64,000 bases of DNA from Methylopila sp. M107 (GTDB lineage Bacteria > Pseudomonadota > Alphaproteobacteria > Rhizobiales > Methylopilaceae). The notes under the pieces are model-generated. The model was not told where the DNA came from. It was given only the letters and a program-made list of their open reading frames with translations, and did not search any database. Positions 14,405-47,333 of the stretch are shown one piece after another. The stretch lies in NCBI RefSeq assembly GCF_000384475.1, contig NZ_ARWB01000001.1, forward strand, positions 3,103,039 through 3,167,038. The letters are read 5' to 3'. Position 1 is the first letter of the stretch; each line of letters starts with the position of its first letter. Position numbers and translations under genes: made by a program.

Positions 14405-15337
14405 ATGCTTGTATCGGCGCCCGCATCGGACGAGCCGCTGGCCAATGTCGGCGCGGCCGTCGAAGAGTTCTGCGCGCATGCGGAGCGGGGTTTCTCGATG
14501 GAGAGCCTTGAAACTGCGCTGCGCAGCATATGCGCCAACATCGACCGGGCGCGAATCGCAGGAAGCGACGACGGAGCGATCCGCGCGCTCGTCCGACCGG
14601 CCTATGACATCCACGCGACCTCCGCATTCATCCAGCGTCTGCAGACATGGCCGCGCGGTTATGCGGGCGACTTCGAGACGATCGAGTGGATCGCGCGCAG
14701 CCATCCGGAACTGGACGCCGGCCATCGCGCCTATTGGATCGAATGGTACGCGCTGAACGGGGTTCTCGGCCAGCAGCACCGCAACAAGCTGGCGTGGCAG
14801 CGCGGCCTGATGGAACGGGCGGCGCGCGGCGGGGGCCGCATCCTGAACATCGGCTGCGGCGGCTGTGCGGACGTCGCCGACGGCCCGGCCTTCCTCGGCG
14901 ACTGCGACGTCGTGCTGGTCGACATGGACGCCGACGCCCTGGCGCTCGCCGGCGAACGGCTGAAGGGCGCCCGATCCCTGAAGTTGGTCCGACGAAACGT
15001 CATCCGCGGCGTGCAGGAGGCGCTGCGCCTCGGACCCTTCGATCTGATCCTGTGCGGCGGTCTGTTCGACTATTTCCCCGACAGGACGATCCAGAAGCTC
15101 GCCGTCCAGCTAACGGGCGCGCTGTCAGACGAAGGCACATTCGCCTTCACGAACATCGGCGACGAGAACCCGCTCAGGCCCTGGATGGAGTATCTCGCAG
15201 ACTGGCGGCTCATCCATCGCGACGCCGGGCTGATGCGTGAGCTCCTGTCCGGCGTCGACATTTCCGGGTTCGACGTCGCGCTGGAGAAAGACGCTTCCGG
15301 CCTGACATGGCTCTGCGCCGTCTCGCGCCGGACATAA
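14405..15337 (+). CDS. Class I SAM-dependent methyltransferase, PhcB-like family
   Basis: A 310-residue protein. The SAM-binding motif I is ILNIGCGGCAD near residue 140, followed by the acidic strand end VVLVDMDADALALA and a motif-IV-like FDLILCGGLFDYF. The preceding GYAGDFETIEWI stretch recalls the group annotated as 3-hydroxypalmitate methyl ester biosynthesis (PhcB-like) proteins, where the substrate is an acyl chain used as a signal. That substrate is inference; no neighbouring PhcS/PhcR-type genes are seen. It stands alone after nasA, with a 137-base gap of moderate AT content that may hold its promoter. Confidence 0.6.
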   Translation: MLVSAPASDEPLANVGAAVEEFCAHAERGFSMESLETALRSICANIDRARIAGSDDGAIRALVRPAYDIHATSAFIQRLQTWPRGYAGDFETIEWIARSHPELDAGHRAYWIEWYALNGVLGQQHRNKLAWQRGLMERAARGGGRILNIGCGGCADVADGPAFLGDCDVVLVDMDADALALAGERLKGARSLKLVRRNVIRGVQEALRLGPFDLILCGGLFDYFPDRTIQKLAVQLTGALSDEGTFAFTNIGDENPLRPWMEYLADWRLIHRDAGLMRELLSGVDISGFDVALEKDASGLTWLCAVSRRT

Positions 15338-15905
15338 AGTCTGGCGCGCGCGCTTTTTAGACGTGAAATATGTTATTTACTCAATGGAACAAGTTATCAG
15401 TGTAAAGTCCCGCGCGTCATCGTCTTATCCAAGATCAGACATTGTAGATTCCGTTGCTATTCCGACGAACAAACATCTCCAGCCTTCCTGCACCATTGGC
15501 TCCAGAGGCCTCGACCGGCGGCTTGAAGCTTCGGCGCAGCGAACGGCGTGCGTGATGTCATGCGAACGGGCGGCCGCAGATGCAGCGGGACGATGTCGTT
15601 GAGGCGTGAGTGGTAAGCGCGGACAGTCGCTCTCCTGCCTAGCCATCCAGAGGTCGCCGGCACGTACCGCGACGCAACCAGAGGGCGGCCGGACGAAGCC
15701 GCTTGCACCCACCGGCAACGGTGTCATAAATCAGGATGGCCCATGCTCGGCCGACAGGAGGCAGGCCACTTTTCCGAAACGTTAGACCCAAATCGACTGA
15801 AAACCGAAATCATCAGCCGGTTTCTTGTTGTCAATTGATATTAAATACATTTTATAATAGTCACCGTGTCTTGGATTATGGGTTCTCAATGCGCGGAGTG
15901 GGTGC
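15338..15905. other. 568-base intergenic stretch, AT-richer than its surroundings
   Basis: I see no convincing gene here. The short open frames on both strands lack ribosome sites or recognisable products. The base composition shifts towards A+T from about 15340, marking the start of the lower-GC glycosyltransferase segment. A possible promoter lies at 15828-15858. Confidence 0.6.
15828..15858 (+). promoter_or_regulatory. Candidate sigma-70 promoter of the glycosyltransferase pair
   Basis: TTGTCA (15828-15833) and TATAAT (15853-15858) are separated by 19 bases. The -10 is a perfect consensus but the spacing is two bases longer than ideal. The coding start follows 47 bases later. Confidence 0.45.
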
Positions 15906-18900
15906 GTGAGCACGACAATTGCGGCGGTTACCGACGATCACAATCAGCGAACAGTACGAGACGACCTGCCCAAGCTGGACGGAAGAATCGATCAAGTCGA
16001 CGGCCGAACTGTAAAGGGATGGATTTTTGATCGGTCTGATCACTCGCGCCATGTCAGTGTAGACATCATCCTTGACGATACCGTCGTTGCGACGGTTTTT
16101 GCGAATGAGCATCGCGCCGATCTAGGAAGAGCTTCGATCGGGGACGGCGATCACGGCTTCACGGCGGTGATCCCAAAAAACATGTTCGACGGATCGAAGA
16201 AACGACTGAATGTGCGCGCCTCAGACACTGGTTACCTTGTCCCGTCCAAGGGTATCAAATCCATTTACATGGATCCCGCGCTTGGCTCTACAGTTTCGGG
16301 CGGAATATTAGGTTTTTACAATGGAATGCTATGTGGATACGCATTTGATAGCGATCTGCCTCAGCAGGTGCTGACGATCGACTTGGTCGTTGAAGGTCGA
16401 GCGCAACGGACCGTTAAGGCCGGCAAGCCGTTGCCCGAACCGTTTCGGCGGATTGCGCCAAGCAACGTCGGCTTCTTTCTCGACGTGAATGAGGTTGAGT
16501 TCGAGGCGATCCTCAATGGCGCCTCGAAGCTTCAAGTGACATCCGACAACTACATATTGCCGCTGGCCAGTGGTTTTGTAGAGACGATCGCCTCCTTCGC
16601 GCTTAACTCGGAAGGTGAAAACCTCGGCGCGAGCGTCACGATATCTGAGCATGTGGCGATACCGATCAGGATCAACATTACTGTAGACGAGCGCTTTGTC
16701 TACGCTGTCCGCTGGCATCCGAAGCTCAGTTCCCGCATCTTGCCAATTTTTCTCAAGAGAAGCGACTGGAACGGCCATTTTCTATCGGCGACCATTGGCG
16801 CGGCCTCTCTGGAAATCGGAGGCTCGCCGGCGCTGCTTTCCGCGCAGCCCCGCGACCTGATTTCAAACGGCAGGTTCAAAGAGTGGGAAGGCTCGGAGCC
16901 CACCAAGTGGACAGTCTCCACCGCCAACCACGTGGCAGTCTCAAAGTCTTTCAGGGCGGCGCCCGTTCCCCGCGCGCGTCTGCTTGGACACACGTCTGTC
17001 CGCTTTCAGAGTTCGCCTCTTGGTAAATCGGTCCAAGGTTCATCGATAGCTCAGAACATTGGCGCGATCAGGCTCCAGGAGGACTCGTGTCTCTACTTCA
17101 TGATTGGCGGGTCGGCGGAGCGCCCCACCGAAGTTCGCGTCGAGGCGACCTTCACCTATATCGGTGAGCACAGCACCAAACCGCCCGTCGTCGCCGAGGC
17201 GAGCGTAAGCCTCGACCGCTCGCCATCGATTCAAACCGCTCCGCTCGTTGCGCAGACGGTAAGCGGCGAGCTTGTCGACTGCTCGGTTACATTGACGCTT
17301 GGCGAAGGCTCGAGCCAGTACGTCGACATCGGACTGATCGCGCTCGGATTGCCTGGCTTCGAAGTCGCGCCGGTCAAACTGGAGGACATGAAAGATCTCA
17401 CGCTCGAGCCTGAGCGCAACGCCATTGCGAATGGCGACTTCGCGATTTGGACAAGCAGTTTCTCAAAGCAGATGGACTCGAAGTCCGTCGAGACAGCGGA
17501 AGGCTGGACGCTCTCGTCGCGCACCGCCAAGCCAGAGGTAAACCTGCGTCTGGTCAACATCCTGACACGTGACGTCCGCAGCGGCGACGTTGGATCGTCG
17601 GCGTATGGGCTCGCGTTGACCGGACCGATCTCGGAAAACTATTTACGTCTTCAGACAGAACTCGACTCGCTCATCTTGGCCACGATAGATGATATCGAGC
17701 TCAGCTTTTACGCCACCGCAGATTTTTTGTCGGTTGGCCGGCCAGAAGCGTCGCCCAGCACCATAAATGAAGTCTTCTTGCTCGAACGCCGCATCGAAAA
17801 TCGCGAGGGCAAACCGGGCAAGGTGACCGACCGTAAGATTTGCAGGCTTGCGCGAAACATTTCCGTTGCGCAGGCGGGCGGCGTGCGCCGCGTCGTGCTC
17901 GACGATACCTTAAAGCGTATGGTCAAAGACGTGGCGCAAGAAGCGATTTACGATCAGACGCGCTCTATCTTGTTGGTGTTTGAATGGCAGACGGGCGTCC
18001 ACTGCGCATTGACCAACATACGGCTGGGCAGCACGATCACGCCTACGCGTCAGATTGGACGCCTACAAGGCGACTTCGTCGCGTTCGAAGACAGGAACAT
18101 CACTGATCAGTTGGATCGACTGAAAGGTCTGGGTGATTGGTCGACGCAAACGATCCGTACGCCGTACGTTTCTGAACCTCGCGTCCAGTCGCAGCTTGCC
18201 GCGAAATGGTCATGGCCGTCCCGGCAGGCCTCGATTGACATCGTGATCCCCGTCTACAATGCGATCGATGACGCCATGGCTTGCCTGAGATCCCTCGAAA
18301 GGCACACCAGCATCCCGCACAGAGTCGTCGTGGTCGACGATTGCTCTGAAGGGCACGCATCTGAACAGCTCGTGCGACATCAAGCGACCCGACCGTGGAT
18401 TCAAGTCATACGTAACACGACCAACAAAGGTTACACGCGGTCTTCCAATATCGGCATGGCGGCTTCGGACTCGGAATGGGTTGTTTTGCTGAACAGCGAC
18501 ACGATCGTCACTCCAAGATGGTTGGAGGGACTGCTTGAAGCGGCCGAGGAGCGCCCTGAGGCCGCCATGATCGGACCTGTATCCAACGCGGCTTCATGGC
18601 AGTCGGTGCCCGAGCTTTACGATAGCAACGGGAAATGGCGCATCAACACAATACCTACCGGTTATTGTATTGACGACGTAGCCCTGTTGGTCGAGGAGCT
18701 CGCTCCACGCGAGTTTCCGTACGCTCCCCTGCTAAACGGCTTCTGTACTCTGATCAAACGTCAAGCACTTGATGAGGTCGGGTATCTCGACGAGGCGACG
18801 TTTCCAGTCGGTTACGGCGAAGAGAACGATCTATGTGTCCGGATCTCAGGAGCCGGCTACAAGCTCGTGGTCGCCGATCACGTCTACGTCTATCATCGCA

Positions 18901-19070
18901 AGTCGGCGAGCTTCGGCCTTAAGCAACGCGACCAGCTGTCAAAACAGGGCACACGGAATTTCGCCAAAAAACATCCACACGTCGATCTCAAAGAGGTGCA
19001 ACAGAGATTGGCCGAGATAAGTTCTCTAGCGATTCTGAGAAATAAACTGAGAGAAAAGCTGGACGCGTAG
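15906..19070 (+). CDS. Large glycosyltransferase family 2 protein with repeated N-terminal beta-type domains
   Basis: A 1054-residue protein starting at GTG 15906 after a GCGGAG ribosome site. Residues 20-115 and about 118-225 look like two copies of one domain (GRTVKGWIFD and GMLCGYAFD, each followed by a strand-rich region). Two later segments each open with a similar pattern (LISNGRFKEW and AIANGDFAIW) and resemble beta-sandwich carbohydrate-binding modules. The GT2 domain occupies about residues 775-1010: SIDIVIPVYNAIDDAM, VVVDDCSEG, LLNSDTIVTPRWL as the DxD-like site, and GYGEENDLCVRISGAGY as the acceptor-side motif. No membrane helices are evident. It likely builds a surface polysaccharide. 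It is followed 35 bases later by a second glycosyltransferase gene. Confidence 0.8.
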   Translation: MSTTIAAVTDDHNQRTVRDDLPKLDGRIDQVDGRTVKGWIFDRSDHSRHVSVDIILDDTVVATVFANEHRADLGRASIGDGDHGFTAVIPKNMFDGSKKRLNVRASDTGYLVPSKGIKSIYMDPALGSTVSGGILGFYNGMLCGYAFDSDLPQQVLTIDLVVEGRAQRTVKAGKPLPEPFRRIAPSNVGFFLDVNEVEFEAILNGASKLQVTSDNYILPLASGFVETIASFALNSEGENLGASVTISEHVAIPIRINITVDERFVYAVRWHPKLSSRILPIFLKRSDWNGHFLSATIGAASLEIGGSPALLSAQPRDLISNGRFKEWEGSEPTKWTVSTANHVAVSKSFRAAPVPRARLLGHTSVRFQSSPLGKSVQGSSIAQNIGAIRLQEDSCLYFMIGGSAERPTEVRVEATFTYIGEHSTKPPVVAEASVSLDRSPSIQTAPLVAQTVSGELVDCSVTLTLGEGSSQYVDIGLIALGLPGFEVAPVKLEDMKDLTLEPERNAIANGDFAIWTSSFSKQMDSKSVETAEGWTLSSRTAKPEVNLRLVNILTRDVRSGDVGSSAYGLALTGPISENYLRLQTELDSLILATIDDIELSFYATADFLSVGRPEASPSTINEVFLLERRIENREGKPGKVTDRKICRLARNISVAQAGGVRRVVLDDTLKRMVKDVAQEAIYDQTRSILLVFEWQTGVHCALTNIRLGSTITPTRQIGRLQGDFVAFEDRNITDQLDRLKGLGDWSTQTIRTPYVSEPRVQSQLAAKWSWPSRQASIDIVIPVYNAIDDAMACLRSLERHTSIPHRVVVVDDCSEGHASEQLVRHQATRPWIQVIRNTTNKGYTRSSNIGMAASDSEWVVLLNSDTIVTPRWLEGLLEAAEERPEAAMIGPVSNAASWQSVPELYDSNGKWRINTIPTGYCIDDVALLVEELAPREFPYAPLLNGFCTLIKRQALDEVGYLDEATFPVGYGEENDLCVRISGAGYKLVVADHVYVYHRKSASFGLKQRDQLSKQGTRNFAKKHPHVDLKEVQQRLAEISSLAILRNKLREKLDA

Positions 19071-19105
19071 GATTTCGTTCTAGAAGGTTCCGTTTTATAG
19101 GCAAG

Positions 19106-20200
19106 ATGATGGACGATCTGAAAGTTGCGTTTGTTCTTCCTGTCGCCGGTGGCAGCGGTGGCGCCAACTCTGTTGTTCAGGAAGCCGTTGGTATTGTACG
19201 GATCGGTGTGGCGGTCGGCGTGATCGTCGACACGAGGAACTACAGGTCTTTTCTGATCAACTATCCCGACGTAGAGCAGCGCGGCGTTACGGTGCTGCCC
19301 TTCGACAACGTCAGCGAACTGGCCGATCACATCGCGGCCTACGACATCGTGGTCGCAACGATCAACCGATCTGTCGCTGACATCGCGCGCGCCTGTGAGC
19401 GTATCAAGGCGGCGGGCGCGAAGGCGCCCCGCGTCGCCTATTATGTTCAGGACTACGAACCGCTGTTCTATCAACCTGGGTCGGAAGAATGGCGTCTGGC
19501 GCACGCCTCATATGCGCTCATCCCAGACGCAGTGCTCTTCGCTAAGACAAAATGGCTGCAAGACATTGTGTATTCAAATCATGGAATTCGCGTTTCGAAG
19601 GTGTTGCCTTCCATGAATCATGATATTTACTATCCTCAGGCGTCAGCCAAAAAAAACGCCTTAAGCATTGTGGCTATGGTTCGCGCCAAGACGCCCCGAC
19701 GCGCACCTCATCGCACCATACGTATAATGGAAAAGCTTATTCTTGAGTTTGGCAGCAATAAAATCAATCTCACGATATTTGGAACGAACACGCGCGAACT
19801 CGCCGATGACGGATTTGTCCTTTCGCCAGGCATAAACAACAGGGGTCGCCTGAAGGCTCACGAAGTGCCGGCGCTGTTCCGCGGCGCGGACTTGTTCCTT
19901 GACCTCTCCGACTATCAGGCGTTCGGCCGAACCGGTCTCGAGGGGATGTGTTGTGGGGTCGTGCCTGTCCTGCCCATTCACGGCGGCGTGTCGGAATATG
20001 CCGAGCACGGCAAGAACGCCTATGTTGTCGACACTCGAAGCGACGAGCAGATCATGGGCGCGATCACGCATTACGCTGGGCTGAGCGACCGCGCCCGCAA
20101 CGAGATGCGGGTCGAAGCGCTCGCAACAGGCGCGCGTTTCAGCGTTCATTCCGCCGCGATGTCCGAGTATCGACTTTTCGAAGAGATCTACCACGCCTGA
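19106..20200 (+). CDS. Glycosyltransferase family 4 (GT-B fold)
   Basis: A 364-residue protein. The N-terminal Rossmann-type start is KVAFVLPVAGGSGGANSVVQEA, with the glycine-rich loop typical of GT4 enzymes. The C-terminal half carries the nucleotide-sugar region, seen as FRGADLFLDLSDYQAFGRTGLEGMCCGVVPVLPIHGGVSEY, with the Glu of LEGM at the position of the second Glu of the EX7E motif. The family is often described as rhamnosyl or mannosyl transferases; the sugar here is unknown. It is probably co-transcribed with the GT2 gene in front. A second ATG at 19109 is an equal start option. Confidence 0.82.
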   Translation: MMDDLKVAFVLPVAGGSGGANSVVQEAVGIVRIGVAVGVIVDTRNYRSFLINYPDVEQRGVTVLPFDNVSELADHIAAYDIVVATINRSVADIARACERIKAAGAKAPRVAYYVQDYEPLFYQPGSEEWRLAHASYALIPDAVLFAKTKWLQDIVYSNHGIRVSKVLPSMNHDIYYPQASAKKNALSIVAMVRAKTPRRAPHRTIRIMEKLILEFGSNKINLTIFGTNTRELADDGFVLSPGINNRGRLKAHEVPALFRGADLFLDLSDYQAFGRTGLEGMCCGVVPVLPIHGGVSEYAEHGKNAYVVDTRSDEQIMGAITHYAGLSDRARNEMRVEALATGARFSVHSAAMSEYRLFEEIYHA

Positions 20201-32136: not shown

Positions 32137-32540
32137 CGCGGATCCTCCGTCCAATGCGTGGTCGACCGGGATACGGACGAATGCGCGCAGACGTTACGGA
32201 TCTCGGCGCCTATTCCCGAGCTCTGATGGATCGAATCGAGCTGTGGATGCGCTTCGTGAGATCGCGACCTGAAGTCTGGATCCGATCTGGGTCGAGCCCG
32301 TTCAAACAAGAACGATTAGTGGCGGAGAGGGTGTCCGCCCGAGGCGCTTTTGGCCAATGTAACTCGGTAAAGGCCGGGGGTGTCCAGCACGGTGGCGCAA
32401 TGCGCTCATATATCGGCAATTCAGCGGCCTCCGAGCCACCTTCGCAACTGTCCAAGTTGGCCATTGACATCCAGCAGAATCCATCTTGATCTCAGCACGG
32501 ATGTTGGGTGAAATGTGGGGTAGGATCGTTAGGCAGACCG
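32137..32540. other. 404-base junction between core DNA and the island
   Basis: No gene is supported here. The left part belongs to the msrA upstream region. A possible tRNA 3'-end fragment lies at 32320-32333, and from there the sequence becomes island-like. The integrase gene starts at 32541. Confidence 0.55.
32320..32333 (-). other. Possible attachment site: 14-base tRNA-Ser 3'-end fragment
   Basis: TGGCGGAGAGGGTG is the reverse complement of the usual 3' end of bacterial tRNA-Ser genes (CACCCTCTCCGCCA). No tRNA body follows, as would be the case for the att copy left by site-specific integration. It lies 207 bases before the integrase start, the normal place for an att site. A chance match in G-rich DNA is possible, and I could not find the second copy or an intact tRNA in the window. 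Confidence 0.4.
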
Positions 32541-33713
32541 ATGAAGCCCCCTGGACGTCATCCGCAGAATGCACTGACGGCCGTCGCTGTTCGAGCTCAG
32601 AAAGCGGCGGGCCGGTACGCCGACGGTGATGGGCTGTATCTCGTTGTCGATCCATCGGGCGCCAAGCGCTGGTTGCTCAGGACGATGGTGCAGGGCCGGC
32701 GGCGGGACCTCGGCTTGGGCGGTGTCAGTTGGATCAGCCTTGCCGAAGCCCGCGAGCGAGCTAAGGCCTTTCGCAAGATAGCCCGTGAGGGTGGTGACCC
32801 GCTGGCGGAGCGCGCAAGAGCACGGGCGTCAGAGATCACGTTCCGGCAGGCGGCCAAGCAGGTCCATGAGGGGCTGAAGCCTAGCTGGAAGAACGCCAAA
32901 CACGGTCAACAGTGGATCAACACCCTAGAGGCCTACGTCTTTCCTTACTTTGGCGATACCCGCATCGATCTCGTCGGCACACCGGAGGTGCTGCGGGCCC
33001 TATCGCCGATCTGGCTGACCAAGTCGGAGACGGCCCGGCGGGTGAGGCAACGGATCGGGCAGGTGCTGGATTGGGCGAAATCGGCTGGTCATCGGCAGGG
33101 CGACAACCCAGTGGACACAGTGGCGAAGGGGCTTCCGCGGCAGACGGATCGCGCCGAGCACCATAGGGCCGTGGCCTACGCGGACGCCGCAGCTTTTGTG
33201 AAGCTTCTTCAAAACGCGGATGGAAATGAGCTTACGCGGTTAGCGTTCGAGTTTTTGGTTCTCACTGCCACCCGAACCAGCGAGGTGCTGAAGGCGACGT
33301 GGTCTGAAATCGATGAGACGTCCGTGCTTTGGACGATCCCCAAGGGAAGGATGAAGGCCGGGGTCGAGCATCGGGTTCCGCTCAGCCAGCGCGCCGTCGC
33401 GATCTTGAAACGTGCTCGCAAATTGGCGCCGGAAGGCGATCTTGTGTTTCCAGGGCGACGAGGTCGACCCTTGTCCAATATGGCTTTCGCGATGACGATG
33501 CGGCGTATCAAAGTTGACGCCACACCGCACGGTTTTCGGTCCACCTTCCGAGATTGGGCCAGTGAGATGACAGCGTTTCCCCACGAAGTGGCCGAGATGG
33601 CGCTTGCTCATACAGTGTCAAACAAGGTTGAGGCTGCCTATCGACGAAGCGATCTGCTTCAAAAGCGTCGCGAACTGATGGAAGCGTGGGGCGTATATCT
33701 CGATGCCTCATAG
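32541..33713 (+). CDS. int: Tyrosine-type integrase (P4-like, with Arm-DNA-binding domain)
   Basis: A 390-residue recombinase. Residues 10-95 form the DUF4102/Arm-binding domain (AGRYADGDGLYLVVDPSGAK, LGGVSWISLAEARERA). The core-binding domain follows (about 100-190) and then the catalytic domain with Arg in LTATRTSEVL, His-x-x-Arg in TPHGFRSTFRDWA, His in EMALAHTV, and the Tyr nucleophile in EAAYRRSDL. It should integrate and excise the island that starts here. ATG 32541 is chosen over an earlier frame start because it gives the usual family N-terminus. Confidence 0.9.
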   Translation: MKPPGRHPQNALTAVAVRAQKAAGRYADGDGLYLVVDPSGAKRWLLRTMVQGRRRDLGLGGVSWISLAEARERAKAFRKIAREGGDPLAERARARASEITFRQAAKQVHEGLKPSWKNAKHGQQWINTLEAYVFPYFGDTRIDLVGTPEVLRALSPIWLTKSETARRVRQRIGQVLDWAKSAGHRQGDNPVDTVAKGLPRQTDRAEHHRAVAYADAAAFVKLLQNADGNELTRLAFEFLVLTATRTSEVLKATWSEIDETSVLWTIPKGRMKAGVEHRVPLSQRAVAILKRARKLAPEGDLVFPGRRGRPLSNMAFAMTMRRIKVDATPHGFRSTFRDWASEMTAFPHEVAEMALAHTVSNKVEAAYRRSDLLQKRRELMEAWGVYLDAS

Positions 33714-38029: not shown

Positions 38030-38902
38030 ATGAGTGAAGTGAGGGCCAATCAAGCTGCTGACGCCGATCCACTCGAGCCGATAGAACGTGAGCGTTCTGA
38101 TTTCGTGCGGAACATGGTGCAGCGGCGTGAGCGCACCCCGATAAATCCGATAAGGGGGTCTAGCCCGACGCCAAAGCGTATCGTGCAATTCTGGGACGAT
38201 CTGCAGCGTCTACCTGAAGATGTCGAGAATTGCATGAATTCTTGGAGACAATTAGAACAGCAAGGTTTCACGCTGGAGGTTTTCGATAAGATTTCAGCTG
38301 GCGATTTTATTCGAAGTCGATTAGGGTCTCGTTATGAAGACGCGTTTAATGAGTGCTACCATCCGTCGATGATGTCGGACTATTTTCGTTATTCGTATGT
38401 TTTGGTGGAAGGTGGTTTTTATATAGATGCCGACGATGTCTACCACGGCACGCCAATCGAGCATCTTTTTAGAGATGGCCGGTTAAAGCTTCAACCGTTT
38501 TGCTACGACATCGCAACAGCCAAAATGGTGGCACCATCAATATTTACAGAACCTGGATCAAACCAAGCAGGTTGGATATTTTATTTCAATACAACACCTC
38601 TGATAGCGGCTCGCAATCATCCCATTGTTGAAAGAGCGTTGATAAACGCCACGGTTTCACTCGAAGCCGAGAAAGCGAACGGGCTCCCCGAGGTCCAAGC
38701 GACGACTGGACCAGGAAACCTCACTCGATCGGTGTTCGAAGTTATAAGAGAAGGATGTCCGCTCGAAGCGGTAATGGTCGCTCACGACTGGGAACAGACG
38801 TCCACGAGCCAGTGGCCGCTCAGTTACCGCAACGACTCAAGAAATTGGAGGCTCTCCAATCAGCGAGCGTACCGAGCAACGCCTGTCGCGGGCCCGCGAT
38901 GA
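38030..38902 (+). CDS. GT32-like glycosyltransferase (DXD sugar transferase)
   Basis: A 290-residue protein with the capsular-type/Och1-like GT32 core: KRIVQFWDD near the start, MMSDYFRYSYVLVEGGFYIDADD as the nucleotide-sugar/DXD motif (about residues 120-142), then a second conserved part around NTTPLIAARNHPIVERAL. GT32 enzymes move mannose, galactose or similar sugars from nucleotide donors. There is no signal peptide, so it works in the cytosol on a growing glycan. Its stop overlaps the next start (ATGA), so the next protein is translationally coupled. Codon use is far more A+T-rich than in core genes. Confidence 0.75.
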   Translation: MSEVRANQAADADPLEPIERERSDFVRNMVQRRERTPINPIRGSSPTPKRIVQFWDDLQRLPEDVENCMNSWRQLEQQGFTLEVFDKISAGDFIRSRLGSRYEDAFNECYHPSMMSDYFRYSYVLVEGGFYIDADDVYHGTPIEHLFRDGRLKLQPFCYDIATAKMVAPSIFTEPGSNQAGWIFYFNTTPLIAARNHPIVERALINATVSLEAEKANGLPEVQATTGPGNLTRSVFEVIREGCPLEAVMVAHDWEQTSTSQWPLSYRNDSRNWRLSNQRAYRATPVAGPR

Positions 38903-41118
38903 ATTTGGCCCGTACGCCGCTTGCCGCGCTTCAATTGATGTCTCGCCTAGGGCATAGCCTCCGCAGAATGCTTCCGAAGCAAACGTCAGAAGCTTTCGGG
39001 GCACAGCCGGCCTGCGGAAGGCCGTCAATCGCCAAGATTTACGTGATCAACTTAGATCGCCAGCCAGATCGATGGTTTCGCATCAAGAAGGAGCTTAGGC
39101 GCATACGGGATGGGAGAGGCAATGATCTTCTCAGCCTCACGGAACGACAAGTGGCAGTAGATGCAAGGCATTTTGATCAGGATTTTGTCAAAGACGAAGA
39201 CGTAGATCCATACTACACGTTAGCCGATCAGCTTTTTGTTGAGCCTCAGCCCCGTACTCTTCCCGCTAAGTTTGAGCTCGAAGCGCCGATCCGAATGAGT
39301 CGAGCAGAAGTCGCTGTTGCCAAATCGCACATCAACGTTTGGAAGCGAATTGCGCAAGGGTCAGAAGGATATGCTCTCATACTTGAGGATGACGTATGGT
39401 TTCATCCACGGCTCGCGCGACGTCTCGATCTTGCTTGGAAGGAGATTGTATCTAGGAGCGAAAATGATGAACCTGACGATGTAATCTACATTTCGTACAA
39501 GGAGGCGATGCATGGCGCGCCAAAATCTTTCATCTCAAAGCATGTATTCAGACCGGTGCGAGGGTTATGGTATTTATCGGGGTATATTCTTTCAAAGCAA
39601 GGCGCGGAAAAGCTTACAAATTTATTGCCTTGTCGCGGCCCAATCGATCTTTGGATGAACCATCAGTTCAATGCATTGAACGTATTGGCGACCAGACGCT
39701 CGATTGTCGAACAAATAACAGACGGAAGCTCATCCAACTCATATTCTATACTTCCAACCCTCTCTATGATCGGCGCGATAAACAGCGAGGGTGCGGCCCT
39801 TTTCAATCTACGCCCAACTCAACTGCCTGTGTTTGCATTCGGGCCGGCTAATTCGGGCCTGTCGTCCCTGGCAATGGCACTGTCCATGCTCGGATACCGA
39901 TGCTGCAGCGATCTCAACGAACTGCCGTTCCGCGAGACGGAGCGGCTTCGGGAAGGCAGTGTTGATCGTGTTTTCAATGCTTACGTCAATGTGGGCTGCC
40001 TTGAAGAAATCTGCGACGAGCTTCGCCTCAGCTATCCGAACGCTAAGTTTATAATAACCGCACAATTAGGCGATGTATCTAACCTCGCTATATCAAAACT
40101 TAGAGCTAAATTAGAGGGTGCAGACGTAATTGTATTTGACCCGTGTAGCATAAGTGCGTGGCGAACTCTCTGCGAGTATCTGAAATGCGCGCCCCCTCTA
40201 TGTCCATTTCCATCGGTTGATGATCTTGGGCAGCGGCTGACAGATCAAGTTGGTAGGGCGCCAGCCTCGGCCCAAAAGAGCTCAATGCCAAAGCAGGATC
40301 AGTCCCCATGGATTGTCGAGCGGGAGCGTCGCGACTGGCGTGGCATTCAGATCATGCCGCCGGCGCCTAAAGATAGGATGCGTTGGGTCGATGCTTCTAG
40401 CGAACTTGACCCACTGCGCTGGTCCGTCCGATCAGACACATTCCCTGGCAATTTAGCGCTGTTTCGCACCCGAAACGTCGAATTCAATGGCATCGATGGT
40501 GCGACGGTACATATTAGGCAGGAAAATCTTGGGGTTCGAAATTACAGTGCAGGCGCCATAAATAGTAATGATGAGTATCTATATGGGAGATTTGAATCAA
40601 TATTTCAAGCTTGCGGCGTGCCGGGAGTTGTTACTGGATTCTTTTTACACAGAAACTCACCACATCAAGAAATCGATATTGAGATTGCCGGCAGTGCGCC
40701 GGGTCGCTTATTGACTAATGTCTTCTATAATCCGGGAGATGTCGGCGCTCCGTTCGACTACGGCTATCGAGGTTCTCCAAGTTACATTGAGCTGGGTTTC
40801 GATGCTTCTAAAAGCATGCATAAGTATGTGATCGAATGGACGGCGTCCGAGATCCGATGGCTGGTGGATGACAAATTGATTCATCGGCGCGTGATTTGGG
40901 ATCCAACCCCAATTCCCCATCAGCCCATGAAATTACACTTTAACACTTGGCCCTCTCGCTCCACTCAGCTTGCGGGCCGTCTCGACACTCGCTTACTGCC
41001 AACCATGACCCACGTGCGATCGATACGAGCAAGTGTGTACGACCTAACCGCGCTTCAGGACGAAGCTACGATGCCCCCAAGCTCGGACCGCCCGGCCTTA
41101 AGCGGAGCTTCTTTGTGA
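38899..41118 (+). CDS. Three-part glycan protein: GT25 glycosyltransferase, sulfotransferase-like domain, GH16 domain
   Basis: A 739-residue fusion. Residues about 45-270 are a GT25-type glycosyltransferase (IYVINLDRQPDRW, SRAEVAVAKSHINVWKRI, ALILEDDVWF as the acidic metal site). Residues about 300-440 resemble the start of Sulfotransfer_4 proteins (VFAFGPANSGLSSLAMALSMLGY), but the phosphate-binding loop lacks the usual Arg/Lys, so it may be inactive. Residues about 490-710 are GH16-like with the catalytic box Glu591-Ile-Asp593-Ile-Glu595 and FHLHRN-like strands in front. There is no signal peptide, which is odd for GH16, usually secreted. Both ends overlap neighbours by four bases. I have not met this domain order before. 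Confidence 0.7.
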   Translation: MNLARTPLAALQLMSRLGHSLRRMLPKQTSEAFGAQPACGRPSIAKIYVINLDRQPDRWFRIKKELRRIRDGRGNDLLSLTERQVAVDARHFDQDFVKDEDVDPYYTLADQLFVEPQPRTLPAKFELEAPIRMSRAEVAVAKSHINVWKRIAQGSEGYALILEDDVWFHPRLARRLDLAWKEIVSRSENDEPDDVIYISYKEAMHGAPKSFISKHVFRPVRGLWYLSGYILSKQGAEKLTNLLPCRGPIDLWMNHQFNALNVLATRRSIVEQITDGSSSNSYSILPTLSMIGAINSEGAALFNLRPTQLPVFAFGPANSGLSSLAMALSMLGYRCCSDLNELPFRETERLREGSVDRVFNAYVNVGCLEEICDELRLSYPNAKFIITAQLGDVSNLAISKLRAKLEGADVIVFDPCSISAWRTLCEYLKCAPPLCPFPSVDDLGQRLTDQVGRAPASAQKSSMPKQDQSPWIVERERRDWRGIQIMPPAPKDRMRWVDASSELDPLRWSVRSDTFPGNLALFRTRNVEFNGIDGATVHIRQENLGVRNYSAGAINSNDEYLYGRFESIFQACGVPGVVTGFFLHRNSPHQEIDIEIAGSAPGRLLTNVFYNPGDVGAPFDYGYRGSPSYIELGFDASKSMHKYVIEWTASEIRWLVDDKLIHRRVIWDPTPIPHQPMKLHFNTWPSRSTQLAGRLDTRLLPTMTHVRSIRASVYDLTALQDEATMPPSSDRPALSGASL

Positions 41119-42719
41119 AAATACTATCCTTCAATCCCGGTCACGATGGCGCCTTCGCCTATCTTGAAGACCGGCGTTTGGTGTTTTCTTTTGAGGCTGA
41201 GAAAAGTTCAAACTACAGACATTCGCCAATAAACGTCCCCGATGCGTTCGAAGCGCTTGCTGAGCTACAAGAGATCCCCGACGTCTTATGTAGAGGCGGC
41301 TGGTGGCCGGGTAGCGCCCCACATGGGCGCGAAGCAATGTCGACATACCATGGTCATAGTAGCGATGAGTTGATCGTCGGCAAAAGAAGTTTTCTTGGAA
41401 AGGAAGTTGAATATTTTTCTTCGTCTCACGAGCGATCGCACCTTTTATGCGCATTTGGGATGTCTGAGCTGCCTAAGGGAACACCGTGCTACGCTTTACT
41501 TTGGGAAGGTATTATCGGTGCATTTTACGAATTTGACGCAGATTTAAGAATCAAGAAAATAGCTGATGTGATGCCTGAGCCTGGCCACCGCTATGCATTG
41601 CTTTATGCATTAGCAGACCCAACTTTTGACAAAAGCACTGCGGAATTTTCCCGCTTGTCTGATGCCGGCAAGTTAATGGCACTAGCCTCTTTCTCAGAAA
41701 GAAAATTGCCGACAAGCGACGAAGAAGCGGTTATATCATTCCTATTCCAGGACATCGCTCATATTACCCCTCGTGCTTGCAGTGCACTGAAGGAGTCGCC
41801 GTATTACAACGTAGGTCTCGATGATCCAGAATTTCGGAATTTCGCAGGTATATTCAGCGACCGATTGTTTGACCGCTTCCATCGGTTTGCAGAAAAAAAT
41901 CTAAAACGGGGAATGCCACTGCTGATAGTGGGAGGGTGCGGTCTTAATTGCGATTGGAATACTAAGTGGAAAAAGACCGCCTTATTTAGTGACGTATTTG
42001 TACCTCCGGTCGCTAATGACTCGGGGTCTGCTATTGGCACTGCCATTGATGCGCAATTTTATTTTACCGGAGATCCGAAGATTTCTTGGGATGTATACTC
42101 TGGAAAGAAATTCGATTTCGGTGGGACTGTCGATATGTGTGACTTTGATAATTTGGGATCGAGCGTAACGACTGTTTCCGAAATGTTGGCCAGCGATCTA
42201 ATATTGGGCTGGGTTAGCAGCCGATGTGAGATTGGGCCGCGCGCTTTAGGCAATCGGTCTATTTTAGCGGCGCCTTTTAGAGCCACTACCAGAGAGCGGT
42301 TGAATATTATCAAGCAGAGAGAACAGTTCCGTCCAATAGCTCCTGTATGCTTGGAAGCTGATGCTGCGCAATGGTTTGGCTGCAGTGAACCAAGCCCATT
42401 CATGCTTTACACCCACCAAGTCTCCACTAACGAGCTTAAAGCAGTTACGCATGTGAATCAAACTGCACGAATTCAGACGGTATCGGCGTTAAGCAACCCT
42501 CCACTGTTTGATCTGCTGACTGCGTTTAAAGCGCTGACAGGGTACGGGGTGCTGTGCAATACATCTCTTAATTTCAAGCACAAAGGTTTTATCAATTCGA
42601 TTTCAGAACTGTCTGCTTACTCCATGGACCATCAGTTAGATGGGTTTGTAATTGATGGAAAAATATACATGCGAAAATCGTCGGGTGGATACCAAAAGTT
42701 TCTGAAGGACTCACATTGA
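41115..42719 (+). CDS. Carbamoyltransferase of the NodU/TobZ/CmcH family
   Basis: A 534-residue enzyme that activates carbamoyl phosphate and carbamoylates a hydroxyl group, as NodU does on Nod-factor sugars. The N-terminal ASKHA/Kae1-like start is VKILSFNPGHDGAFAYLED, the metal-site His is in SSHERSHLLCAF, LLIVGGCGLNCDWN is the nucleotide site, and the C-terminal domain shows CEIGPRALGNRSIL, REQFRPIAPVCLE and YGVLCNTSLNFKHKGF. The start is GTG 41115, overlapping the previous stop (GTGA) and preceded by GCGGAG. The likely substrate is the sugar added by the two upstream glycosyltransferases; that link is inference. Confidence 0.82.
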   Translation: MKILSFNPGHDGAFAYLEDRRLVFSFEAEKSSNYRHSPINVPDAFEALAELQEIPDVLCRGGWWPGSAPHGREAMSTYHGHSSDELIVGKRSFLGKEVEYFSSSHERSHLLCAFGMSELPKGTPCYALLWEGIIGAFYEFDADLRIKKIADVMPEPGHRYALLYALADPTFDKSTAEFSRLSDAGKLMALASFSERKLPTSDEEAVISFLFQDIAHITPRACSALKESPYYNVGLDDPEFRNFAGIFSDRLFDRFHRFAEKNLKRGMPLLIVGGCGLNCDWNTKWKKTALFSDVFVPPVANDSGSAIGTAIDAQFYFTGDPKISWDVYSGKKFDFGGTVDMCDFDNLGSSVTTVSEMLASDLILGWVSSRCEIGPRALGNRSILAAPFRATTRERLNIIKQREQFRPIAPVCLEADAAQWFGCSEPSPFMLYTHQVSTNELKAVTHVNQTARIQTVSALSNPPLFDLLTAFKALTGYGVLCNTSLNFKHKGFINSISELSAYSMDHQLDGFVIDGKIYMRKSSGGYQKFLKDSH

Positions 42720-42871: not shown

Positions 42872-43498
42872 ATGCGCCAGCCCGACTTGTTCCGCTTACC
42901 CCAGAAGCCATGGAACGCCGGTCGTCTCATCGGACCCAAAGCGCCGTTGAAGCCGAAGCACATTTGGGCGATCCGTCAGCAGTTGAAGACCAACGCTCAG
43001 GTCCGCGACCTTGCGATGTTCAACTGCGCCCTCGACGCAAAGCTGCGCGGATGCGACTTGGTCAAACTCCGAATCAGCGACGTGGCCATGGGCGGATCGA
43101 TCCGCCTGAGGTCGACGGTCATGCAGCAGAAGACCGGCCGACCGGTCCCATTCGAGATCACCGAGCCTGCGAGAGACGCGCTCGCGGCTTGGCTCCGAGT
43201 GAGGGGTGGTCGACCGGGTGACTGGCTGTTCCCAAGCCGGAGCGTGCCAGGCCAGCATATCGGAACGCGCCAGTACGCTCGGTTGGTCGACAAGTGGGTT
43301 TGTATGATTGACCTTGAGCCAACGGCCTATGGCACGCACAGCCTGCGCCGCACGAAGGTGTCGCTGATCTACAAGAAGACCGGCAACTTGAGGGCGTGCC
43401 AGTTGCTCCTGGGGCATGGAAAGCTCGAGAGCACGGTTCGCTACCTTGGCATCGAGGTCGACGACGCTCTGGCGCTGTCTGAGCAACTCGAGATTTGA
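42872..43498 (+). CDS. Small tyrosine recombinase (catalytic domain only)
   Basis: A 208-residue phage-integrase-type protein beginning at ATG 42872 with an excellent AGGAGGGGG ribosome site. It has the catalytic Arg (AKLRGCDLVKLRISDV), the Lys in QQKTGRPVPFEI, His-Ser-Leu-Arg-Arg (THSLRRTKVS), the second His in LLGHGKLESTVRYLGI and the Tyr in the same stretch. It lacks a full core-binding domain, having only about 45 residues in front. Such short recombinases occur on plasmids and islands of proteobacteria. It may act with the integrase at 32541 or mark a second element. Confidence 0.83.
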   Translation: MRQPDLFRLPQKPWNAGRLIGPKAPLKPKHIWAIRQQLKTNAQVRDLAMFNCALDAKLRGCDLVKLRISDVAMGGSIRLRSTVMQQKTGRPVPFEITEPARDALAAWLRVRGGRPGDWLFPSRSVPGQHIGTRQYARLVDKWVCMIDLEPTAYGTHSLRRTKVSLIYKKTGNLRACQLLLGHGKLESTVRYLGIEVDDALALSEQLEI

Positions 43499-44081: not shown

Positions 44082-45667
<1,586 letters not shown>

Positions 45668-45671
<4 letters not shown>

Positions 45672-47333
45672 GCCTCGCTCCGCTTCAGGATGTCGTCGAG
45701 CCCGCCGAGCCGGAACCAGCGATAGCCGTAGCCCTCCAGCACGACATGATGACGACCGTCGGGACCGGGTTCGCTGTGGTTCTCGTCGAGGAGGTTCGAG
45801 AGCGTCGCGGGCGCGTCGTCGGTCCCGCCTGCGCGGAATGCGACCTCCTTCGGCTCGACGTCGAAATTGTGCAGGAACACCACGACGTTTTCGCGCCATT
45901 CGTAGCGCAGCGCGAGCACGGCGGGGTCTTTGACCGGCAGGACGCGATACTCGCCCCAGCCGATCTCCGGCACCTCCTGCCGCATCCGGATGATGCGCTC
46001 CATCCAGTTCAGCAGCGATTGCGGGTCGCGGCGCTGATCGGCGACGTTGACGGTCTCGAAGCCGAAGGCGCCGCCGGAGATTGCGGGCAGGTAGGTCTTC
46101 TCCGCGGTCGAGAAGCCGCCGTTCTCGCGGTTGCTCCACTGCATCGGGGTGCGCGCGCAGTAGCGCTCGGGGAGTTTTAAGTCGTCGCCCATGGCGATCT
46201 CGTCGCCGTAGCGCATCACTGGCGTGCCGGGCAAAGTGAACATCAGGCTGTAGGCCAGCTCCAGCCGCCGCCGGTCGGCCTTCAGCATCGGGGCGAGACG
46301 CCGCCGGATGCCGCGGTCGTAGAGCTGCATCGCCTTTTCGGGTCCGAATTCGTCGAACACCCTCTGGCGCTGCTCCGGCTCGAGCCGGCCGAGGTCGAGC
46401 TCGTCGTGGTTGCGCAGGAACAGGCCCCACTGCGCGGTCGGATAGGCGGTCTTCGTCTCGTTCAGGCCTTTGGCGAGCGGGCCGCTCGCCGGACGCCAGC
46501 GCATAGAACAGGCGCTGGTTGACGTGAAAGTTGAACATCATCTGCAGGCGGTCGCCGTCGTCGCCGAAATATTTCATAGCCTCCTTCGGGACGATGTTGG
46601 CTTCGCCGAGGATCACGCTGTCGCCCTTGCGCCACTGCAGGAATTCGCGAAACGAGCGCAGCATCGCGAAGTCGGACGGCGGCTCGAGACCGACGTCGGG
46701 TCCCTTTTCGGCGATCACGAACGGCACCGCGTCCATCCGGAAGCCCGAGACTCCGAGCTGGATCCAGAACCCCATGATCTTCAACAACTCGGCCTGCACG
46801 AGCGGGTTGGCCGTATTGAGGTCTGGCTGAAAATCGTAGAAGCGGTGGAAGTAGTAGGCCTTGGCGGCCTCGTCATAGGTCCAGGTCGTGGTCTGGACGC
46901 CTGGAAACACCATGCCCTTGTCGGCGTTCTTGGGCTTTTTCTTCGACCAGACGTACCAGTCGCGATAGGGCGACTTCGGGTCCGACCGGGCGGACTTGAA
47001 CCAGGGGTGCTGGTCGGAGGTGTGGTTGACCACGAGGTCGATCAGTACCCGCATGCCGCGCTGTTTGCAGCCATGGGTGAACTCGACAAAGTCGCCGAGC
47101 GTTCCAAAGCGCTCGTCGACATTGTAGTAGTCGGAGACGTCGTAGCCGTCGTCGCGGCCGGGCGAGGCCTGGAACGGCATCAGCCAGATCGCGGTGACGC
47201 CGAGCCCGTGGAGATAGTCGAGCCGGCGGGTCAGTCCGCGGAAATCGCCGACCCCGTCGCCGTCGGAATCCATGAAGCTCTCGACCGCCACGCAGTAGAC
47301 GACCGCGTTCTTGTACCAGAGGTCAGTGATCAT
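45668..47333 (-). pseudogene. Trehalose-synthase-like GH13 gene with a one-base frameshift
   Basis: Two frames together encode about 554 residues of a TreS-like GH13 protein. The first part (from ATG 47333) has [20 protein letters not shown], Asp in GFRMDAVPFV and Glu in ILGEANIVP. The second part holds the third acidic residue (LRNHDELDLGRL) and the C-terminal beta domain. They join at LFYALASGERP / PLAKGLNETK: removing one base from the GGG run at 46479-46481 (CCC on the coding strand) restores a continuous ASGERPLAKGL reading. The lesion splits the catalytic triad, so the gene is inactive unless this is a sequencing error. It has no C-terminal maltokinase domain. Confidence 0.75.

Follow-up and report, generated by a model that had tools for sequence, protein, structure and literature searches.

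What might a bacterium gain from a mobile cassette that joins, on one protein chain, a domain that builds glycans and a domain that cuts them? This question is raised by a locus of Methylopila sp. M107, within a stretch of 64,000 nucleotides (NZ_ARWB01000001.1:3,103,039-3,167,038; hereafter the window, in whose positions coordinates are given). Three consecutive plus-strand genes encode a GT32-like glycosyltransferase of 290 amino acids (aa; gene A, 38030..38902), a 739-aa fusion of a GT25 domain, a degraded P-loop/sulfotransferase-like domain and a GH16 domain (gene B, 38899..41118), and a 534-aa NodU/TobZ-type O-carbamoyltransferase (gene C, 41115..42719). This work demonstrates that the fusion is genuine and old, that the trio itself is the moving unit, and that the cassette is rare and widely scattered. 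The strongest clue to its function is the vicinity of defence genes on unrelated mobile elements, which formed no part of the case made in a preliminary description of the locus. We tentatively propose that the enzymes of the cassette, working in the cytosol, produce, remodel and carbamoylate a glycan, and that this shields the carrier from phages or rival elements.

Structure of the cassette

The three genes are intact and lie where the preliminary description had placed them, with their open reading frames (ORFs) coupled by overlaps of 4 bases, ATGA at 38899 between A and B, which has an ATG start, and GTGA at 41115 between B and C, which has a GTG start. The GC contents of A, B and C are 0.51, 0.51 and 0.47, against ~0.67 in most of the window, and scans for promoters and terminators found nothing above chance. 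Pfam profiles bear out the domain assignments originally made for the trio. Gene A matches PF04488 (Gly_transf_sug; E 9.2e-7, 29.9 bits against a cut-off of 23), with no significant match in a search of PDB sequences; D133, D135 and D136 are invariant in 26/26 loci, as is the D-x-D motif to which the first two belong (residues 133-135, 38426..38434). Gene C matches Carbam_trans_N (PF02543, 1.4e-20) and Carbam_trans_C (PF16861, 3.2e-52), and its relatives in the PDB include TobZ, GdmN and a decarbamoylnovobiocin carbamoyltransferase, which we take to be antibiotic-tailoring enzymes. Its HxxxH sequence (H105, H109), presumably the metal-binding motif of NodU/TobZ carbamoyltransferases, is invariant in 19/19 gene C proteins, a set that excludes one copy split over two frames (L018), one shortened to 442 aa near a contig end (L019) and one interrupted by the IS4-type transposase gene of an insertion sequence (IS; L028). 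Against the NodU equivalog NF041651, gene C scores 254.1 bits, below the cut-off of 1000.

The order A-B-C is shared by the window, L010-L028 and viral contig L037. However, C lies upstream (C-A-B) on the Sphingobium and Rhizobium leguminosarum plasmids, is divergent on viral contig L038, and is not found beside A-B, within the cassette vicinity that was inspected, in the Klebsiella/Escherichia coli type, the Aliarcobacter type or viral contig L039. Since C is missing from beside the pair, relocated or divergent in several lineages, the core of the cassette is A+B, with gene C a frequent accessory partner. Hence the trio recognised in the preliminary description stands as far as the constant pair A+B is concerned, but not with the carbamoyltransferase as a fixed member. 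Where they occur together the genes are co-inherited, as their pairwise distances co-vary between A and B (r=0.97, 26 loci), B and C (0.96) and A and C (0.95, both over 19 loci).

A fused transferase and hydrolase

The fusion was compared across 26 proteins, leaving out L010, as a near-duplicate of L022, and also L037. Its GT25 domain (residues 46-250, 39034..39648; Glyco_transf_25, PF01755, 4.1e-13) carries an acidic box, E163-D164-D165, and its GH16 domain (Pfam residues 541-691, 40519..40971; Glyco_hydro_16, PF00722, 1.2e-27) carries the catalytic box E591-I-D593-I-E595 (40669..40683). The E-D-D and E-x-D-x-E boxes are both kept in 26/26 fusions, extending to all the fusions compared the intact GH16 box noted originally in the window protein alone. 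In six close pairs, the ratio of non-synonymous to synonymous substitution rates (dN/dS) is 0.10-0.19 in the GT25 domain and 0.07-0.13 in the GH16 domain, compared with 0.17-0.42 in the middle domain and 0.32-0.55 in the linker. As dN/dS is low and the catalytic boxes are invariant, the outer domains look selected as enzymes, while the middle domain appears to drift. What makes the enzyme unusual is that domains for making and for cutting glycans stay together on a single chain, under strong selection.

Searches of PDB sequences matched the N-terminal part to procollagen galactosyltransferase, and the C-terminal part to lichenases and xyloglucan-active GH16 enzymes. An AlphaFold2 model of the whole fusion, built from 19 aligned fusions, has a mean predicted local distance difference test (pLDDT) score of 68 and a predicted template modelling (pTM) score of 0.43, making it reliable at the domain level only. 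The model of the C-terminal domain was matched by Foldseek to lichenases, XTH and Crh transglycosylases, with a template modelling (TM) score of 0.82, by target length, to the jelly-roll of 1mac. The predicted fold of this part is thus that of GH16, rather than the other fold that the preliminary description had allowed might overturn its reading. Laminarinase-type GH16 boxes carry an extra residue relative to the lichenase/XTH type; the box E-I-D-I-E is without it, and by sequence this domain fits the lichenase/XTH branch, in which transglycosylation is common. The N-terminal basic helix of the model (residues 6-22, 38914..38964, with residues 1-9 at low confidence) could possibly contact a membrane surface.

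The middle domain (residues 311-440, 39829..40218) matches only part of the Sulfotransfer_4 profile (PF17784, 5.4e-6; best stretch residues 311-387). Modelled in isolation, it has a well-predicted alpha/beta core with a weak likeness to P-loop kinases and sulfotransferases: its top Foldseek match is a gluconate kinase, and the sulfotransferases 5wrj, 5tiz, 9wwe and 3ap1 follow at probabilities of 0.94-0.98, none reaching E 1e-3. At fusion residue 318 we would expect a basic residue, as in the loop with which sulfotransferases bind 3'-phosphoadenosine 5'-phosphosulfate. The preliminary description had seen that it is missing from the window protein, and it is also missing from 24/26 fusions; the remaining two, both distant, have R/K in this column, yet have lost the S-G of the loop. 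An active sulfotransferase was consequently rejected, given the degraded loop and faster evolution. The tailoring role once considered for this domain is unlikely, because it is partial, fast-evolving and probably non-catalytic.

Hydropathy suggests that all three proteins are cytosolic, where the fusion had been placed from the outset. Among the proteins scanned, 26 from gene A, 26 from gene B and 19 from gene C, none showed a membrane span (largest 19-residue mean 1.73), and by hydropathy, with no dedicated predictor run, there was no clear signal peptide (N-terminal 11-residue maximum 2.06, in the L022 fusion).

A rare and scattered cassette on mobile elements

A scan of contigs found the fusion, in its full-length range, at 17 GTDB genome loci with 61-67% identity over nearly the whole length. 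One of these, L010, is filed as a Methylomirabilota metagenome-assembled genome and is a near-duplicate of L022 (same identities); the other genome loci are named Alpha-, Beta- or Gammaproteobacteria. Nine plasmid records also carry the fusion: an IncC plasmid of Citrobacter freundii (65% identity), one of Rhizorhabdus (63%), an IncFII plasmid of Klebsiella michiganensis (49%), four of Aliarcobacter (43%), one of Sphingobium (37%) and one of R. leguminosarum (35%). With Klebsiella-type DNA as the only query, 4/5426 complete E. coli genomes proved to carry this type (85% DNA identity), and one strain name is shared by two of these records. Seven loci on viral contigs matched, with the whole fusion in 3/7 (L037, L038 and L039) and a match restricted to the GT25 region in L040-L043. 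Close to the host the fusion is scarce: nine of 101 surrounding genomes have a match, full-length only in the host itself; there is none in the 12 other genomes of its genus; and, besides the host, 1/397 and 1/384 genomes match in phylum and class samples. The carriers come from sources as diverse as urine, poultry meat, mussel, soil and clover.

Such a distribution bears on the possibility that the fusion is an artefact of assembly or sequencing, which the preliminary description expected relatives with separate genes to reveal. Each of the 26 fusions compared is read from a single open frame, and full-length copies recur at 16 genome loci other than the window and across numerous assemblies made independently, some of them complete plasmids or chromosomes; this explanation is refuted, its residual probability being negligible.

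The description of the locus as part of a mobile island was well founded. In the window, the low-GC stretch has an integrase with an Arm-DNA-binding domain on its left side (32508..33713, plus strand; PF22022, PF13356, PF00589) and, on the other, a 208-aa XerC-like recombinase directly downstream of the trio (42872..43498, plus strand, from profile matches). This recombinase is 57-58% identical to two that flank the Klebsiella plasmid cassette, and a remnant 34% identical to it adjoins the E. coli copy, which resides on a chromosomal element with VirB-type secretion genes. Elsewhere, the cassette is found on plasmids, integrative elements and viral contigs. The carrier plasmids of Citrobacter, Rhizorhabdus, Klebsiella and Sphingobium are typed as conjugative, and those of Aliarcobacter and R. 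leguminosarum as non-mobilizable. Phage genes accompany it on two viral contigs: terminase and portal genes precede the trio on L037, and L038 has a terminase gene.

What moves is the trio, since it alone recurs widely between loci. Across 24 loci, including L010, every neighbour family besides A, B and C is confined to three loci or fewer, and similarity of the flanking DNA is restricted to four pairs of loci upstream and two downstream. A fixed insertion site was not apparent, as matches to the island flanks are adjacent in 0/12 other genomes of the genus; in two of them (G009 and G011) these matches lie ~20 kb apart on one contig. A 26-nucleotide repeat at 32145 and 43193 was set aside, its copies being only 77% alike and the second falling inside the recombinase gene.

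Defence genes near the cassette

A known or candidate defence gene lies nearby in 8/10 of the plasmid, E. coli and viral lineages, some being identified by annotation name and the count having no control set. DUF262 genes are 3.2 kb from the cassette in Citrobacter and 0.4 kb in R. leguminosarum; Rhizorhabdus has a PDC-S06 relative 0.3 kb away and also Abi; Shedu is 1.7 kb away on the three Aliarcobacter plasmids, of four records, that were examined for neighbours, one of which also has TIR and another Lit; Sphingobium has RES/Xre 0.3 kb away and also multiubiquitin/ThiF; and an ABC-three-component system lies 7.8 kb from the E. coli copy. On the viral contigs, Lit is 0.1 kb away in L038, and PDC-S53 is 0.1 kb away in L039, which also has Gabija. 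No defence neighbour was seen on the Klebsiella plasmid or L037. Related PDC-S06 ATPases stand directly downstream of gene C in two distant hosts (L016:14244-16910 and L028:20114-22759), with a PtuA/AriA-like ATPase coming after that of L016. A UvrD helicase, of conflict-system type by Pfam, adjoins gene C in L012.

For the genome loci, 151 neighbour ORFs of 15 loci were compared against the PADLOC models with 254 control ORFs, drawn from ten of these genomes in 16 ordinary regions of 20 kb each. The case set excluded L010 and L014, whose contigs are short, as well as every locus from plasmids, E. coli or viral contigs. The case batches matched 89 and 21 families at E 1e-15 and the control batches 5 and 3, counts that are inflated by near-redundant models. 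At E <1e-50, at least 7/151 neighbour ORFs matched against 0/254 controls (Fisher p 0.0009), the seven being read from PADLOC family tallies with GajA, GajB and the methylase counted without a locus. These strong matches are GajA, GajB, a UvrD/GajB-like helicase, a type III restriction enzyme and methylase, PDC-S06 and RtcR. RtcR regulators are not defence-specific; the best control match was 4.6e-48, and without RtcR six matches are left (p 0.0025). As the strong matches cluster by locus, the p value at the ORF level overstates the case.

As a separate observation, Pfam identified a CHAT-domain protein (L021:4330-8064) and a DUF4365 protein (L020:6762-8648) near the trio; both are of types often found in conflict systems.

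The acceptor

In Gram-negative bacteria, GT25 enzymes are familiar above all from the synthesis of the lipopolysaccharide (LPS) core. Yet with controls positive in E. coli and Caulobacter, LpxC had no match in 2/17 carrier genomes, both draft genomes of Sphingomonas, and PF04413, which we take to be the WaaA-type family of 3-deoxy-D-manno-oct-2-ulosonic acid (Kdo) transferases, had none in 3/17, namely the two Sphingomonas drafts and the window host, which is one complete contig. Carriers without LpxC and/or WaaA matches, together with a host range that extends from Alphaproteobacteria to Campylobacterota, disfavour an ordinary Kdo-containing LPS core as the general acceptor, and it was rejected in this general role. 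The candidates that remain are envelope glycans of another kind, lipid-linked precursors, or a product of the cassette's own making.

Within the host genus, PF04413 passes the cut-off in 5/13 genomes (7/13 at E 1e-3), and therefore its absence is a trait of part of the genus, rather than of one assembly. This pattern suggests an unusual LPS in part of the genus.

Possible functions

The protective role we propose for the cassette is tentative, with a probability somewhat short of even. The GT32-like product of gene A and the GT25 domain would assemble a short glycan from sugar nucleotides, which the GH16 domain on the same chain, of the lichenase/xyloglucan-transglycosylase branch, would trim or transglycosylate; the middle P-loop domain would act as a non-catalytic spacer or binding module; and gene C, where present, would carbamoylate a sugar hydroxyl. 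Spread by the plasmids, integrative elements and prophages that carry it, the cassette would most likely protect, either by altering an envelope glycan distinct from the ordinary LPS core or by way of a glycan product inside the cell. Protection is suggested by where the cassette lies, amid defence genes and on elements in competition for hosts. Hence the tentative link to phage recognition drawn in the preliminary description holds, now with the defence neighbours as support, but not with the ordinary Kdo-containing LPS core as the general acceptor. A more specific claim, which we regard as unlikely, is that this is a glycan-based intracellular immunity, in which soluble, mobile enzymes would use universal sugar nucleotides, and their product or modification would block phages or elements without a conventional Kdo-containing LPS core, in hosts such as Sphingomonas, Escherichia and Aliarcobacter; it would be the first of its kind. 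A protective role, if true, would extend bacterial immunity to carbohydrate chemistry carried out within the cell, and would account for a conserved but uncharacterised cassette that passes between bacteria of the environment and plasmids of clinical origin. As the carriers include Caulobacter, Rhizobium and E. coli, it is testable by standard methods.

Several results weigh against protection. None of 50,697 phage records matched the fusion, the model of the whole fusion is of modest confidence, and the count of 8/10 defence-associated lineages is uncontrolled. None of the three trio proteins matches any model of PADLOC version 2.0.0 at E 0.1, and six other proteins of the window island gave one weak match (0.002), with no clear defence gene in that island. 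When the comparison of genome loci is made by locus, strong matches occur in 3/15 (L012, L013 and L016) against 0/16 controls (p 0.10), and at E 1e-15 the estimate is ~15/151 against up to 11/254 ORFs (p 0.035), derived from family tallies in which 25 of 89 families were listed for one batch. Checked singly, 14/20 large neighbours of the genome loci have no PADLOC match. The control regions were ordinary parts of the same contigs, not mobile islands in which defence genes are common. The comparison by locus and the 14/20 neighbours without a match would also suit a cassette that is plain accessory cargo, serving niche adaptation or host interaction, and sharing islands with defence genes through accumulation alone, as such genes are common on mobile elements of these kinds. 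This explanation is nevertheless rather unlikely: the sources of the carriers share no niche, and six lineages (L028, Aliarcobacter, L031, L032, L038 and L039) have a defence-type gene no further than ~1.8 kb from the cassette.

Two further explanations were weighed. The cassette might convert the cell surface, adding or remodelling a carbamoylated side chain on an exported envelope glycan, such as an exopolysaccharide, O-antigen precursor or glycosphingolipid, and so masking phage receptors, as prophage-borne glycosyltransferases do. The phage genes beside the trio on L037 and L038, the defence neighbours, and the envelope-glycan transferases held by the GT25 and GT32-like families would agree with this. 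However, the cassette brings no flippase, polymerase or membrane protein and has no widely recurring neighbour, and a single surface acceptor is hard to imagine across carriers that include those lacking LpxC and/or WaaA matches, in hosts ranging as far as Campylobacterota; surface conversion is possible, if on the unlikely side. Alternatively, the product might be a small, soluble carbamoylated glycoside, antibiotic- or signal-like, acting inside or outside the cell, as the antibiotic-tailoring relatives of gene C and the soluble appearance of all three proteins by hydropathy would allow. This is distinctly improbable, given that no exporter, resistance or aglycone-making gene recurs beside the trio, and that A-B stands without a neighbouring carbamoyltransferase in the Klebsiella/E. 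coli, Aliarcobacter and L039 types. The probabilities that we attach to the protective role and to its rivals overlap.

Comparison with known systems

In its working, the cassette would somewhat resemble the gtr-type serotype-conversion clusters of prophages, which are likewise mobile, phage-borne glycosyltransferase genes. These clusters, thought to alter phage recognition, include a membrane glucosyltransferase and a flippase, whereas the trio, without a flippase or, by hydropathy, any membrane span, consists of soluble transferases with a fused GH16 domain and a carbamoyltransferase. It also travels on plasmids and integrative elements, and some of its hosts have no LpxC/WaaA matches. With Nod-factor tailoring, in which NodH is the sulfotransferase, the cassette shares a NodU-like O-carbamoyltransferase and a sulfotransferase-like domain, but gene C falls below the NodU cut-off, the sulfotransferase-like domain is degraded, and no nod neighbours recur. 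The GH16 fold and E-x-D-x-E box are common to the fusion, bacterial lichenases, XTH/Crh transglycosylases and ExoK; unlike lichenases and ExoK, the fusion lacks a signal-peptide-like hydrophobic segment, is joined to GT25, and scores far below the BglS and ExoK equivalog cut-offs. Similarly, the GT25 domain and its acidic box are common to the GT25 transferases of LPS biosynthesis and to procollagen galactosyltransferase, but the fusion is a three-domain chain whose acceptor, in some hosts, is not a Kdo-containing LPS core. Although the cassette shares its elements with Gabija, Shedu, Lit and type III restriction, among other anti-phage systems, the trio corresponds to no PADLOC model.

While the individual domains are known, no earlier description of the fusion, the trio or their distribution was found in the open-access literature, a scope outside which most subscription journals fall. 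As far as their main texts go, PMC9122126 and PMC10799925 do not mention glycosyl, carbamoyl or sulfotransferase, and PMC9523054 has one unrelated mention.

Other observations

Two relatives of gene C did not extend the system. On a Salmonella plasmid (L072:10001-14343), a carbamoyltransferase with 47% identity, annotated in two pieces, stands beside thymidylate synthase, inosine/xanthosine triphosphatase and amidohydrolase genes, and this locus looks like one of nucleoside modification or natural product synthesis. On a Sinorhizobium sojae plasmid (L073:6028-7176), a lone truncated relative, 74.7% identical over residues 144-531, lies among IS elements and is perhaps a relic of the cassette.

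Elsewhere in the window, a second low-GC glycan island (14405-20200) holds a gene with weak methyltransferase matches, a gene for a GT4-like transferase, and one for a protein of 1054 aa whose C-terminal part is GT2-like. On the minus strand, a gene that we take from its sequence to be of alpha-amylase/trehalose-synthase type seems divided between two frames (ORFs 44082-47333 and 45668-46504), through either a frameshift or a sequencing error.

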